Part shown: positions 43,294 through 47,647 of the stretch, one piece after another
How positions within the stretch are numbered: the stretch's first letter is position 1
How the letters are laid out: each line of letters starts with the position of its first letter
Origin: an uncultured Marinococcus sp.
GTDB lineage: Bacteria > Bacillota > Bacilli > Bacillales > Marinococcaceae
Direction of reading: 5' to 3'
NCBI RefSeq assembly: GCF_947493875.1
Contig: NZ_CANLSU010000003.1
Span: forward strand, 124,001 to 188,000
Length of the DNA: 64,000 nt
Position numbers and translations under genes: made by a program
The notes under the pieces: model-generated
The model's input: the letters and a program-made list of their open reading frames with translations, nothing else
Told to the model about the DNA's origin: nothing
Databases searched by the model: none

Positions 43294-43310
43294 TCAACAG
43301 CACCTAACAA

Positions 43311-43342
43311 AAATCCTCTCCAGAGCTGGAGGGGATTTTTTT
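43311..43342 (+). terminator. Rho-independent terminator
   Basis: AATCCTCTCCAG (43312-43323) pairs with CTGGAGGGGATT, followed by T7. Confidence 0.85.
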
Positions 43343-43437
43343 ATATTGCCGGAGTTCGATAGGTTTGTATGATAGGAAATTTCTGTTAACGAAAGTATAA
43401 TATTTTATACTACAAATATTATACTGGAGGTACTAAT

Positions 43438-44571
43438 GTGAGTGAGTTGTGTAAAATCATGTGCGTTGTCGGCACCCGGCCGGAGGTTATAAAAATGGCC
43501 CCGCTGGTACATAAAATTTCACAAAGCAGCCAATTTGAATTGTGCCTGGTAACGACCGGTCAGCATAAAGAAATGGTCGGACAGGCGATGGAATTGTTCC
43601 AGCTGAAGGCGGATGTTGATCTAAAGGTAATGAAAGCAGGGCAGACGCTCACAAGCATCACGTCCAGAGTATTGGAGCGGCTGGAGCCGGTCATGCAGGC
43701 CGAACAGCCTTCTGTTGTGCTGGTGCACGGGGACACCACGACGACATTGGCTGCCAGTCTGGCAGCCTTTTATCAAAAAGTGGATATTGGCCATGTGGAG
43801 GCCGGGCTGCGAACATATGATAAATACGCACCGTACCCGGAGGAAATGAACCGTCAGCTGGTATCGCGATTAGCAGATTGGCACTTTGCGCCGACGGAAC
43901 TGGCCAGACAGAATTTACTGGCGGAAAATATTGACGCTAAAAGCATTCAGGTGACCGGCAACACAGCAATTGACTGCCTGAATCTGACGCTGAAACAGCA
44001 CTACAGCCATGAGCTGCTGGAGCGGATGAACGGGCATGAATTTATACTGGTTACCGTACACCGCAGAGAAAACCTGGGTGTTAATATGGAACATATTTTC
44101 TCAGCCCTGCTGGATATTCTCGATTACTTTCCGAATATTCATATACTGTTTCCGGTTCATAAAAATCCTGTCGTTCGTGAGCTGGCTGAACAAATGCTTC
44201 AAAATCATCCGCGAATTCATTTATCCGAGCCGTTAAACACGGTGGACTTTCATAACATTGCATATCGTTCGTTACTTATTCTCACAGATTCCGGGGGTGT
44301 GCAGGAAGAGGCGCCGTCTTTGCATAAGCCGGTGCTTGTACTCAGAAACCAGACCGAACGTCCGGAAGGCGTGGACGCAGGAGTGCTAAAGCTTGTGGGA
44401 ACGGATCGCGAAACAATTGTCCAAAGCGTGACGGCGCTTTTAACCGATGAGCGAAGCTATCAGCAGATGGCATCCGGCATCAATCCGTATGGAGACGGCC
44501 AAGCTGCAGAACGAATCATCCGCGTGCTGGAGGAGCACTACGCTTCCGCGCAGGCTGCAGGGAGAGAATAA
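43438..44571 (+). CDS. wecB: UDP-GlcNAc 2-epimerase (non-hydrolysing)
   Basis: A 377-residue enzyme making UDP-N-acetylmannosamine from UDP-GlcNAc. Blocks: VVGTRPEVIKMAPL at the start, VHGDTTTTLAASLAAFY, GHVEAGLRTYDKYAPYPEEMNR, VTVHRRENLG and DSGGVQEEAPSLHKPVLVLR. GTG start follows TGGAGGTACTAAT. First gene of a four-gene polysaccharide operon; UDP-ManNAc would be the sugar donor for the synthase encoded two genes on. Confidence 0.95.
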   Translation: MSELCKIMCVVGTRPEVIKMAPLVHKISQSSQFELCLVTTGQHKEMVGQAMELFQLKADVDLKVMKAGQTLTSITSRVLERLEPVMQAEQPSVVLVHGDTTTTLAASLAAFYQKVDIGHVEAGLRTYDKYAPYPEEMNRQLVSRLADWHFAPTELARQNLLAENIDAKSIQVTGNTAIDCLNLTLKQHYSHELLERMNGHEFILVTVHRRENLGVNMEHIFSALLDILDYFPNIHILFPVHKNPVVRELAEQMLQNHPRIHLSEPLNTVDFHNIAYRSLLILTDSGGVQEEAPSLHKPVLVLRNQTERPEGVDAGVLKLVGTDRETIVQSVTALLTDERSYQQMASGINPYGDGQAAERIIRVLEEHYASAQAAGRE

Positions 44572-44572
44572 T

Positions 44573-45349
44573 ATGCGGATTATTCAGTCGATGGTGCTTT
44601 TGTCCGGTCTTATGGCTCTGGCCATGCTGGCGCTGATATGGTTCAGCGGGCCGGTGCTTAGCTTGATGGTGACGGCTGTGATCGGCCTGCTGCTGGCAAT
44701 AGTCATTTTGCTTCCGACACGGTTGATTTTTCCGGCGGCTCTCGTGTCCGTGCTCGTGTATGGATTTTTTCTTACAGGGTGGAGCATGTTTTTTGCTTCA
44801 GCGCCTCCCCAGGAGGAATTAATTCTTCATCATATTCTCTTCAGCATCTTTGTAATTTCGTTTTGGCTGTTCTTTGTTTCGGTGAAAACAGCTGTAGAGG
44901 AAAACAATACGCTGCGCCAAAAAGTGAGGGAGCTCGAAAAATATCAGGGAGAGCTGATGATGCTGTCAAACAGCGAATTTAACAATCAGGCGGAATTGTT
45001 TTTAACAGGTATGCGGCGGCGCCGTGAACAGGGATTTCTCGTGGAGGTCATGCTGCGGAATTCTTCCTATACGCAGGAAGCGCTCCAGGAGGTCATGAGC
45101 AGCGTGTTAATTGATTCGATCCGGAGCCAGTTTGACCTGGTAACCAATAACGGGGACCGAAGCTTCACGATGTTTTTGCAGAACACGGATGAGAAGGGGC
45201 TTGGCATTGTGCTCGAGCGTATTAACGAAAACTGCAGGGAAAGGGTATCGATGATAGAACCGCCGTATGAGCTGCACTATGCCGAAGTACAGAATTACAG
45301 TCTGGAAGCAACGCGGGAGTATTTACAGCAGCAGAGGACGGGGGCCTGA
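44573..45349 (+). CDS. Membrane protein with degenerate GGDEF-like domain
   Basis: A 258-residue protein. Four membrane segments (about 5-24, 29-47, 50-68, 83-104), a coiled linker (107-130), then a cytoplasmic domain shaped like GGDEF: SNSEFNNQAELFLTGMRRRRE, SIRSQFDLVTNNGDRSFTMFLQNTDEKG. The GGDEF motif is reduced to NNGDRSF (192-198), so it cannot make c-di-GMP. The nearby RSQFD (184-188) is one residue off a canonical RxxD inhibitory site. It parallels YdaK/PssE receptors of Bacillus and Listeria EPS systems. It starts 2 nt after wecB and ends 1 nt before the synthase. Confidence 0.72.
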   Translation: MRIIQSMVLLSGLMALAMLALIWFSGPVLSLMVTAVIGLLLAIVILLPTRLIFPAALVSVLVYGFFLTGWSMFFASAPPQEELILHHILFSIFVISFWLFFVSVKTAVEENNTLRQKVRELEKYQGELMMLSNSEFNNQAELFLTGMRRRREQGFLVEVMLRNSSYTQEALQEVMSSVLIDSIRSQFDLVTNNGDRSFTMFLQNTDEKGLGIVLERINENCRERVSMIEPPYELHYAEVQNYSLEATREYLQQQRTGA

Positions 45350-45350
45350 A

Positions 45351-46580
45351 ATGACGATATTTTTTATATGTGTGATGAGCTTTTTCTGGGCGCTTTTGCT
45401 GTATTATTCCTGGCTTGCGGTAGGCGGGGTTATTCATAGGCGGCGGCTGTACCCCTATAACGAACTGAATCACTACCCTTCCGTGTCGATATTTATTCCG
45501 GCACATAATGAAGGGGTGGTCATGAAGGAAACGCTGCAGGCGATGAATGCGCTGGACTATCCGGGGGAGCTTCGTGTCTTTCTGCTCGATGACAATTCAT
45601 CTGATGAAACGGAAGCGATCGGACTGGCCTTCAGCCGGATGTTTTCCCGAATTCATTACATTCAGGTGCCGCCCGGGGAGCCAAAGGGAAAATCCCGGGT
45701 GCTGAATTACGGCCTGAGCTTTATCGATACGAAATATTTTCTGGTTTATGATGCCGACAACCAGCCGGAGCCCGGCGCTGTTAAACAGCTGGTGGAAGCT
45801 GCGGAACAAACCGACAGGGCGGTAGGGGCGGTAGGCTACGTGAAAACGATCAATGCCAGAAAAAATTTACTGACGCGCATGATCGCCCTTGAGTTTCAGG
45901 TGTTTCAGCTGTTGATGCAGAGCGGCCGCTGGTACTGGTGGAAGATGGGGTCGCTGGCTGGCACGAATATGCTGCTCGAGGTGGAGGCGATGCAGGAGCT
46001 TGGCGGCTACGATGAATACGCTCTGGCAGAGGATGCGGAGTTAACGATCCGGGTGGCGGCGAAGGGATGGAGGCTGCCGGTCGTGCCGGAAGCTAAAACA
46101 TGGGAACAGGAGCCTGAGACGATCTCGATTTTTCTGCGTCAGCGCACGCGCTGGCTGATTGGCAACATTTATCTGCTGGAAAAATCGTTCAAGGATTTTT
46201 CCTTCTGGAACAGAACAACCATGCTGCACTCGGTTCAGCATATTACCACTTACCTGTTTTTTGTGGTTCTGTTGTTTTTGTCCAATATTTTATTTGTGCT
46301 CAGTCTTTTCGATGTGTTTACTACGGCGATTACCGTTCCGCTTTTGATGATCTGGTTTATGAGCTACATAGTTTACACGAGCCAGATCTTCAGTGCCCAG
46401 GTGCTGGAGCGGGATGTAACGACCAGGCAGGTCGCCGTGGGAAGCGTTATGTATTTCACCTATGCCCAGCTGTTTTTGATTTTACTCGCTAAAAGCCTTT
46501 ACGCCTATACCGGAAGCCGTCTGCGCCGGAAGGTCATTAAATGGGACAAAACGGAGCGATTTAAAGGCGGGAGCTCGTGA
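45351..46580 (+). CDS. Processive GT2 glycosyltransferase (EPS synthase)
   Basis: A 409-residue inner membrane polysaccharide synthase. One N-terminal membrane segment is followed by the GT-A domain with DD (80-81), DAD (134-136), ED (227-228) and QRTRW (264-268), the D,D,D,QxxRW set of cellulose/hyaluronan/PNAG-type synthases, and then three or four C-terminal membrane segments that would form the export channel. With UDP-ManNAc made by the first gene, a ManNAc-containing polymer is a reasonable guess. Start ATG 45351 is 1 nt after the preceding stop. Confidence 0.9.
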   Translation: MTIFFICVMSFFWALLLYYSWLAVGGVIHRRRLYPYNELNHYPSVSIFIPAHNEGVVMKETLQAMNALDYPGELRVFLLDDNSSDETEAIGLAFSRMFSRIHYIQVPPGEPKGKSRVLNYGLSFIDTKYFLVYDADNQPEPGAVKQLVEAAEQTDRAVGAVGYVKTINARKNLLTRMIALEFQVFQLLMQSGRWYWWKMGSLAGTNMLLEVEAMQELGGYDEYALAEDAELTIRVAAKGWRLPVVPEAKTWEQEPETISIFLRQRTRWLIGNIYLLEKSFKDFSFWNRTTMLHSVQHITTYLFFVVLLFLSNILFVLSLFDVFTTAITVPLLMIWFMSYIVYTSQIFSAQVLERDVTTRQVAVGSVMYFTYAQLFLILLAKSLYAYTGSRLRRKVIKWDKTERFKGGSS

Positions 46581-47593
46581 CACGAAAACAATTAATTATA
46601 GGAATAGTCAGTATTGTGATCGCCGCAGCTGTGTTTGTTTTCATCAACGCATACAGCCAGACTGATCCGGTGGTAGATACGGTGGAGAAGGAGTACCGGG
46701 GCGACCATGGCTTAATTCAAAATTATCCCGGGGCCGCTGGAGAGGCAGAATATTTATCGGAAGCTGAAGGCCTGTATTTGGAGTATCTGCTGCTGACCGG
46801 CCGAAAAGAGCTTTTTCGGGACGAAGTGGAACGGCTGGAGCCGCTTCTGCAGAAGGTTCCGTCCGGGAAGCTGGTCCAGTGGAAGGAAGGCAGCAATACT
46901 TCCACCAATGCACTGATTGATGATATCCGTATTGCCTCAGCGCTTGACCGGGCCGGCGCCCAGTTTAATGACCACAGCTATACCGAGCTGTCCAAATCTA
47001 TTCAGGACGGCCTGAGGGCCAACAATTTTGTGGAAGGAAGCTGGAGGGACTATTACGACTGGCAGCAGGACGAGGCATCGCCGGAAATTCATTTCAGCTA
47101 TTTTTCCAGTGAAAAATGGAAGCAGTTTGGCTGGTCGCAGAAGGAACTGCAGATCATTCAACGTGCAAAGGATAGCGGCAGCGTGTTTTATCTGGAGTCA
47201 TATAATGCTGTAAAGCGGCAGCCGGAGGCGTACAATCTCCAGGAGGTTAATATGATTGACCAGGTGCTGATTATGCAGCAGATGAACACGGAAGCCCCGG
47301 AAACGGAGGCACTGGCGCAGTGGATTGATAAGAAATACGAAGAAGAAGGCAAAATTTACGGCCGTTACCACCGGACCTCAGAAAAAGCGTCCGTGAATTA
47401 TGAAGCAGCAAGCGTTTACGCCCTGCTTTTGATCCAGGAGATTGATGATGGAAATATCCAGGAGGCAGAGAAATGGGCGGAGCCGCTGAGGGGGCTGCAC
47501 GAGGCCGCAGACCCTTCAGAGGACACCCACTTTTTTGATTACATGCTGGCAGCCATTGCGCTCGAACGGCTGGAGCAGGCGAAAAACAGCTGA
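46577..47593 (+). CDS. GH8-like glycan hydrolase of the EPS operon
   Basis: A 338-residue protein with a membrane anchor (5-24) and an (alpha/alpha)6-type body. EYLSEAEGLYLEYLLLTG carries Glu62 where GH8 enzymes have the SEGxxYGM acid, STNALIDDIRIASAL matches the second conserved Asp segment, and VNYEAASVYALLL the late helix. BcsZ, PssZ and YdaJ play this role beside EPS synthases, trimming the polymer. GTG 46577 overlaps the synthase stop by 4 nt. Last gene; a terminator follows. Confidence 0.78.
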   Translation: MTRKQLIIGIVSIVIAAAVFVFINAYSQTDPVVDTVEKEYRGDHGLIQNYPGAAGEAEYLSEAEGLYLEYLLLTGRKELFRDEVERLEPLLQKVPSGKLVQWKEGSNTSTNALIDDIRIASALDRAGAQFNDHSYTELSKSIQDGLRANNFVEGSWRDYYDWQQDEASPEIHFSYFSSEKWKQFGWSQKELQIIQRAKDSGSVFYLESYNAVKRQPEAYNLQEVNMIDQVLIMQQMNTEAPETEALAQWIDKKYEEEGKIYGRYHRTSEKASVNYEAASVYALLLIQEIDDGNIQEAEKWAEPLRGLHEAADPSEDTHFFDYMLAAIALERLEQAKNS

Positions 47594-47613
47594 TGAGAAA
47601 AAATATTGAACTA

Positions 47614-47647
47614 CCCCTGACGGATGCTGCTCCGTCGGGGGTTTTTT
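47614..47647 (+). terminator. Terminator of the EPS operon
   Basis: CCCC and GACGGA (47614-47624) pair with TCCGTC and GGGG (47631-47640), followed by T6. Confidence 0.85.

Follow-up and report, generated by a model that had tools for sequence, protein, structure and literature searches.

A four-gene operon of an uncultured Marinococcus resembling the Pss and Yda exopolysaccharide systems

The locus and its described counterparts

Two described systems come closest to the locus reported here. The ydaJKLMN operon of Bacillus subtilis encodes a PssZ-like hydrolase, a receptor with four transmembrane (TM) helices and a degenerate GGDEF domain, and a glycosyltransferase family 2 (GT2) synthase; its polymer has been called unknown (PMC7064775) and is elsewhere said to be known only through a lectin (PMC13274460). 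The pssA-E operon of Listeria monocytogenes likewise encodes a degenerate GGDEF receptor alongside its GT2 synthase, and this receptor is reported to be essential for exopolysaccharide (EPS) formation (PMC4125290). The Listeria hydrolase PssZ, which degrades a polymer of N-acetylmannosamine (ManNAc) and galactose at a ratio of 2:1 (PMC7479077), is encoded apart from pssA-E, in an operon for turnover of cyclic di-GMP (c-di-GMP). Here we describe a locus with counterparts of these three proteins at positions 43438-47593 of a 64,000-nucleotide (nt) stretch, the window, from an uncultured Marinococcus sp. (contig NZ_CANLSU010000003.1). As originally predicted from the DNA alone, it consists of four tightly linked genes; all lie on the + strand, with gaps of 1 nt and 1 nt followed by a 4-nt overlap.

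The first gene (43438-44571, GTG start, 377 amino acids [aa]) encodes a non-hydrolyzing UDP-N-acetylglucosamine (UDP-GlcNAc) 2-epimerase of the MnaA/WecB type, the second (44573-45349, 258 aa) a four-TM protein with a degenerate GGDEF domain, here called the regulator, the third (45351-46580, 409 aa) a processive-type membrane GT2 synthase, and the fourth (46577-47593, GTG start, 338 aa) a hydrolase with an N-terminal hydrophobic stretch. Gene content, gene order, conservation, predicted folds and conserved residues are the established part of our account. Our preferred reading, to which we give roughly even chances, is a minimal, post-translationally gated EPS synthase operon that acts like Pss and Yda and has a product most likely containing ManNAc; the sugar, the ligand and the gating are what we infer. 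The epimerase would convert UDP-GlcNAc to UDP-ManNAc. Judging by its fold, the GT2 protein may polymerize the sugar and, in the manner of hyaluronan synthase, thread the chain through its own membrane helices. The regulator, beside it, would activate the synthase once a nucleotide, most likely c-di-GMP, occupies a modified I-site. By analogy with PssZ, the hydrolase would trim or release the polymer outside the membrane.

Synthase matches (threshold E 1e-40) were found in 53 of 299 genomes sampled from the order. The window's clade accounts for 26 of the 53, and the regulator gene is adjacent in all 26. Among the named loci, which are the 80 best of 359 matches and overlap with the order sample, the regulator gene lies directly upstream of the synthase gene in 79; the exception is L142, whose contig starts at the synthase. 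A gene of glycoside hydrolase family 126 (GH126) follows in 51 of these loci and lies elsewhere in the flank in 4 more. YdaL-like genes occur in 19, genes for the BcsB-like YdaN in none, and epimerase genes in two, those of Alkalicoccobacillus murimartini and Sinobaca qinghaiensis. The full four-gene order also exists in two other genera; because it recurs there and its middle pair are neighbors in nearly every named locus, it is not a product of chance.

A second cluster type (L017-L024, L095) combines genes for a YdaL-like (DUF2334) protein, a GT2 synthase, an epimerase and a GH126 enzyme, with no GGDEF-like gene. Besides the window's family, genome G230 has it, and G027 has both types.

The window operon differs from yda in the absence of YdaL (DUF2334) and YdaN, the added epimerase, the gene order, a regulator with RxxxD in place of RxxD, and a synthase from a separate clade. 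Pss differs from it in having the BcsB-like PssD and an RxxD in PssE; PssZ was the Pss sequence compared, and the rest of Pss is likened by description. No BcsB-like YdaN/PssD is among the four operon genes, which are the part of the window genome searched for one. The predicted resemblance to Pss and Yda holds for the regulator, which is homologous to YdaK, for the synthase, which is nearer to Yda-type synthases than to PgaC or BcsA, and for the hydrolase, which is closest to PssZ; it stops at the synthase clade and the I-site. Because the regulator-synthase pair is so constant, YdaN absent from the named loci and the epimerase rare in them, and because the synthase forms its own clade and the regulator carries RxxxD, we regard the operon as a distinct minimal variant of Pss/Yda. 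The original wording, a reduced version carrying its own UDP-ManNAc supply, is too broad, since the pair is widespread without the epimerase; it fits only the window's species and the two other genera. The epimerase is a lineage-specific addition to a regulator-synthase core.

The regulator, the synthase and the hydrolase

No curated family in Pfam or NCBIfam matched the regulator above its cut-off. PF00990 matched 7 of 24 regulator relatives at E <= 1 (best 3e-6), the window protein not being among the matches listed, and a PDB search with a profile of the 24 reached diguanylate cyclases (best E 8e-4). An AlphaFold2 model built from 63 sequences has a mean predicted local distance difference test (pLDDT) score of 93.1; its N-terminal part consists of four long helices and its C-terminal part of an alpha/beta domain. 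Foldseek returned 48 PDB matches at E <= 0.001, and the 50 best are all diguanylate cyclases or other GGDEF-bearing proteins; these include DosP and ImcA, which we take to bear GGDEF domains. VIA-align superimposed the model on isolated GGDEF domains with Z of 15-16 (130-139 residues, about 2.6-2.8 A). The model thus agrees with the predicted four-TM GGDEF-like protein, its soluble half folding as a degenerate GGDEF domain.

Relatedness to YdaK extends into the membrane part. A profile comparison with seven YdaK-type receptors, assigned as YdaK by gene order, gave 96.8% probability and E 2.2e-10 over 221 columns, the TM region among them, versus <= 1.5% for five unrelated families. A comparison with the genome's own GGDEF set (68% probability) was not relied on, as only 3 of its 8 rows are true GGDEF proteins. 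Two of the seven receptors (L096, L099) are 283 aa long and have the arginine of RxxD at position 202, in agreement with a description of B. subtilis YdaK (PMC7064775). Judged by its profile, the regulator is remotely homologous to YdaK over its full length.

None of 90 regulator copies from the named loci has a GGDEF motif. The strict RxxxD pattern is present in 77, and three more (L125, L153, L155) have RxxxD with a different following residue; the remaining 10 are second copies in Planococcus-type loci, 8 of which read RxxD (the last counts by eye). These second copies (e.g. L130:10032-10805, L133:10041-10814) sit downstream of the YdaL-like gene. In an alignment of the window protein with 62 of the 90 copies, second copies and near duplicates excluded, R184 and D188 are present in 63/63 and R216 in 62/63. 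The canonical RxxD I-site is replaced by RxxxD in the window regulator, and in a HMMER alignment the R184/D188 pair falls, with one residue inserted, on the RxxD motif of a GGDEF protein whose structure is solved. The I-site of PleD comprises R359, D362 and R390, plus R313 of a neighboring molecule (PMC7288161); by alignment and spacing, R216 would correspond to R390. PelD of the Pel system, likewise a four-TM protein, offers a parallel: its degenerate GGDEF domain gates polymer synthesis via RxxD (PMC8461298). It differs in having a GAF domain, and the Pel glycosyltransferase is a soluble GT4 enzyme. Signaling by c-di-GMP is likely present in the host, because 13 PF00990 matches in the window genome exceed the cut-off.

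The regulator might instead be a structural partner needed for assembly or stability of the synthase, or a binder of another nucleotide, and no c-di-GMP sensor. The uniform RxxxD of the aligned copies, set against RxxD in 7/7 YdaK-type receptors, would suit this explanation, as would the complete lack of GGDEF motifs. We nevertheless find it unlikely: mean column identity of the domain is 31%, yet the arginine, the aspartate and the third arginine are almost invariant, a constraint that a mere scaffold would not need.

The predicted D,D,D,QxxRW synthase was confirmed by residues D81, D134, D136, E227-D228 and Q264-R265-T266-R267-W268, which are invariant in alignments of 23 and of 33 relatives. 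Its model (pLDDT 86.6) matches hyaluronan synthases over the full length (Z 28-31 over 363-380 residues) and the mannosyltransferase PcManGT over 333 residues (Z 31), so the predicted fold is hyaluronan-synthase-like. By BLAST, the protein is 37-39% identical to ten Yda-type synthases over 403-417 residues, versus 27% to Escherichia coli PgaC over 292, 21% to BcsA over 327 and 22% to NfrB over 295. A 53-row tree separates the synthase clade from Yda-type and YdaL-type synthases by a long branch (support 100/100). Nearer to Yda-type synthases than to PgaC or BcsA, the protein does not show the grouping with poly-N-acetylglucosamine (PNAG) or cellulose synthases that would have refuted the original prediction; its clade is also not inside the YdaM clade, in a tree that does not include Listeria PssC and whose root is not resolved, since rooting by PgaC and BcsA failed on the saturation of both branches.

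We rejected two assignments for this protein. Its best NCBIfam match is PgaC_IcaA (TIGR03937), at 122 bits far under the cut-off of 422 for a PNAG synthase (PgaC/IcaA). Against the cellulose synthase model (BcsA, TIGR03030) it scores 74 bits versus a cut-off of 699, and the operon has no BcsB-like partner.

The fourth gene had been called GH8-like, which the searches do not bear out: there is no GH8 Pfam match at E <= 1 and no Pfam family above its cut-off. Its two relatives in the PDB are 6R2M (E 5e-34) and 3REN (E 1.9e-9), which are Listeria PssZ and CPF_2247, both GH126 in CAZy; PssZ itself was first named GH8 (PMC7479077). Read from the alignment, the putative catalytic and functional residues Glu84, Asp136, Arg139 and Tyr194 of CPF_2247 correspond to E62, D115, R118 and Y175, and Tyr307 was not located. 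The four residues are kept in 116, 116, 113 and 114 of 116 hydrolases, some organisms being counted twice. By sequence the enzyme is closest to PssZ, and GH126 is the better name.

The linked epimerase and the sugar of the polymer

The predicted UDP-GlcNAc 2-epimerase was recovered with strong scores against PF02350 (E 1.4e-118 in the Pfam scan) and TIGR00236 (508 bits, cut-off 210); the hydrolyzing NeuC model NeuC_NnaA gave 122 bits, under its cut-off of 236. Enzymes of this family convert UDP-GlcNAc to UDP-ManNAc. In a genome-wide profile search this was the sole PF02350 match of the window genome, and a search of that genome for TagA/WecG (PF03808) found none; a local UDP-ManNAc supply, as originally proposed, is therefore credible. 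Two nucleotide-sugar dehydrogenases of the genome exceed the Pfam cut-off. They score best as TviB-like and TuaD-like, below those equivalog cut-offs, and no dehydrogenase of the genome scores best as a UDP-ManNAc dehydrogenase. A separate polysaccharide cluster on contig C5 (L276) carries TviB-like, TviC-like and flippase-like genes.

Epimerases accompany comparable synthases elsewhere. The E. coli N4 glycan receptor (NfrA/NfrB with WecB) has a c-di-GMP-controlled GT2 synthase that requires a UDP-GlcNAc 2-epimerase, a genetic precedent for an epimerase feeding such a synthase, and a ManNAc polymer has been postulated (PMC8669472). It differs from the window operon in its distant synthase NfrB, its regulator and its Gram-negative export. 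A linked epimerase is also part of a Clostridioides difficile 630 operon with a BcsA/BcsB-like pair, GH113, WecB and a deacetylase, from which a ManNAc-rich polymer was proposed (PMC7710045). This operon, likened by description, differs in the BcsB-like subunit, GH113 and the deacetylase, and the accessible portion of that source mentions no GGDEF-like protein.

Linkage was compared with TagA in 51 genomes, the 53 minus G013 (a relic) and G232 (62% complete, on a 3.2-kb contig); PF03808-negative genomes were partly assigned by subtraction. The epimerase lies in or beside the synthase cluster in 9 of 14 genomes without PF03808 versus 0 of 37 with it (Fisher 6.6e-7). In G131 it is a divergent neighbor and the synthase is fragmented. 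The pattern therefore favors a ManNAc polymer, though its significance is lost when kinship is taken into account. In an epimerase tree, window-type in-cluster genes and nine of the other type fall into separate clades (99/98 and 93/98, respectively), and the G131 gene pairs with a stand-alone gene (97/93). The supported branches require at least two changes, that is, separate recruitments, with long branches leaving the details unsure.

Of the 53 genomes with a synthase, 51 have an epimerase, versus 216 of 246 others (p 0.087); without the four genomes with fragmentary synthases (G013, G232, G131, G044) the counts are 49/49 versus 216/246 (p 0.007). Stratified, the test gives p 0.12 among TagA-negative and 0.13 among TagA-positive genomes; in the window's family the counts are 10/10 versus 11/19 (p 0.027). 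All these tests ignore kinship. We set aside a general statistical case for ManNAc from epimerase presence, as the kinship-aware test is not significant.

Within the genus, congeners G012 and G014 have no regulator or hydrolase match and no PF02350. Congener G013 has lost the stretch equal to window positions 43377-46301 (leader with the promoter region, epimerase, regulator and most of the synthase), with the hydrolase frame intact; the relic lies at about 7270-8651 of L015, and there is no PF02350 elsewhere in that genome. This relic, together with broken genes in several relatives (e.g. L021, L082, L266), could suggest that the window operon is itself a decayed, non-working Pss/Yda operon that lost YdaL and YdaN. 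We consider that highly improbable, given that the YdaN-free gene set is conserved across many genera, that all motifs are intact, and that a second strain carries the synthase at 99.5% identity.

Several observations weigh against our preferred reading of a gated synthase with a ManNAc-containing product. BLAST finds no regulator next to the basal synthase relative G094 (47% identity), and RxxxD differs from the I-site with demonstrated binding in YdaK and PssE. Five TagA-negative genomes with a synthase have no linked epimerase (G059, G142, G148, G229, G314). Across six independent pairs on the 53-row synthase tree, with G006 and G022 added from the family search and G131 omitted, linkage follows TagA absence in 1-2, opposes it in 0 and shows no difference in 4-5, which is not significant. 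G015, the second strain of the window's species, has an extra epimerase elsewhere; among 18 family genomes that lack any hydrolase match, 11 nonetheless encode an epimerase. Finally, 78 of the 80 named loci have no epimerase in the cluster.

That last count also speaks for a synthase that makes a GlcNAc polymer, PNAG-like or chitin-like, with the epimerase merely sharing the operon and serving another wall or capsule polymer. The PgaC_IcaA match, far below cut-off as it is, points the same way, and the nearest fold, that of hyaluronan synthase, belongs to enzymes whose substrates include UDP-GlcNAc. We think a GlcNAc polymer improbable, because the synthase is closer to Yda-type enzymes than to PgaC, the window genome has no other recognized UDP-ManNAc consumer, and congeners lose epimerase and synthase together.

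Operon boundaries and wider meaning

Terminator-like hairpins mark both edges of the operon, one (43309-43340, + strand) belonging to the preceding gene and the other (47613-47642, + strand) following the hydrolase gene. Both come from a consensus scan, and either alone is weak evidence because 13 such sites were observed across the 64,000 nt versus 5.4 expected. A perfect inverted repeat with 12-nt arms and an 8-nt spacer (43394-43425, no strand assigned) lies just 5' of the ribosome-binding site and is possibly the operator of some regulator; exact copies, in 5 of the 282 loci, are confined to the window's species. For a riboswitch in the leader, Rfam gave a single chance match (E 1.1, far under the gathering score).

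More broadly, the pair may represent a widespread, apparently unnamed synthase class of Bacillota: a self-contained hyaluronan-synthase-like polymerase with a four-TM degenerate GGDEF partner that gates it via a non-canonical RxxxD I-site, and without a BcsB-like subunit. In lineages that lack teichoic-acid ManNAc metabolism, the epimerase would have been drawn into the operon, which would reveal that the class polymerizes ManNAc. We offer this tentatively, as possible but still doubtful. In the open-access literature, seen mostly as titles and abstract openings, we recognized no account of the regulator-synthase class, and we do not claim its absence from print; not found described were the separate class, the RxxxD site, the missing BcsB-like partner and the epimerase-linkage pattern.

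The only UDP-ManNAc-making gene found in the genome lies inside the operon, and the composition of the polymer should therefore be easy to test. The window's genus provides a natural test, as its members have either both the operon and an epimerase or neither. If the synthase superfamily uses UDP-ManNAc, the composition of the yda polymer could be tested by asking whether the polymer requires the epimerase. The range of c-di-GMP receptors would broaden with a conserved RxxxD regulator, and biochemistry would gain a very compact gated synthase in the two-gene pair.

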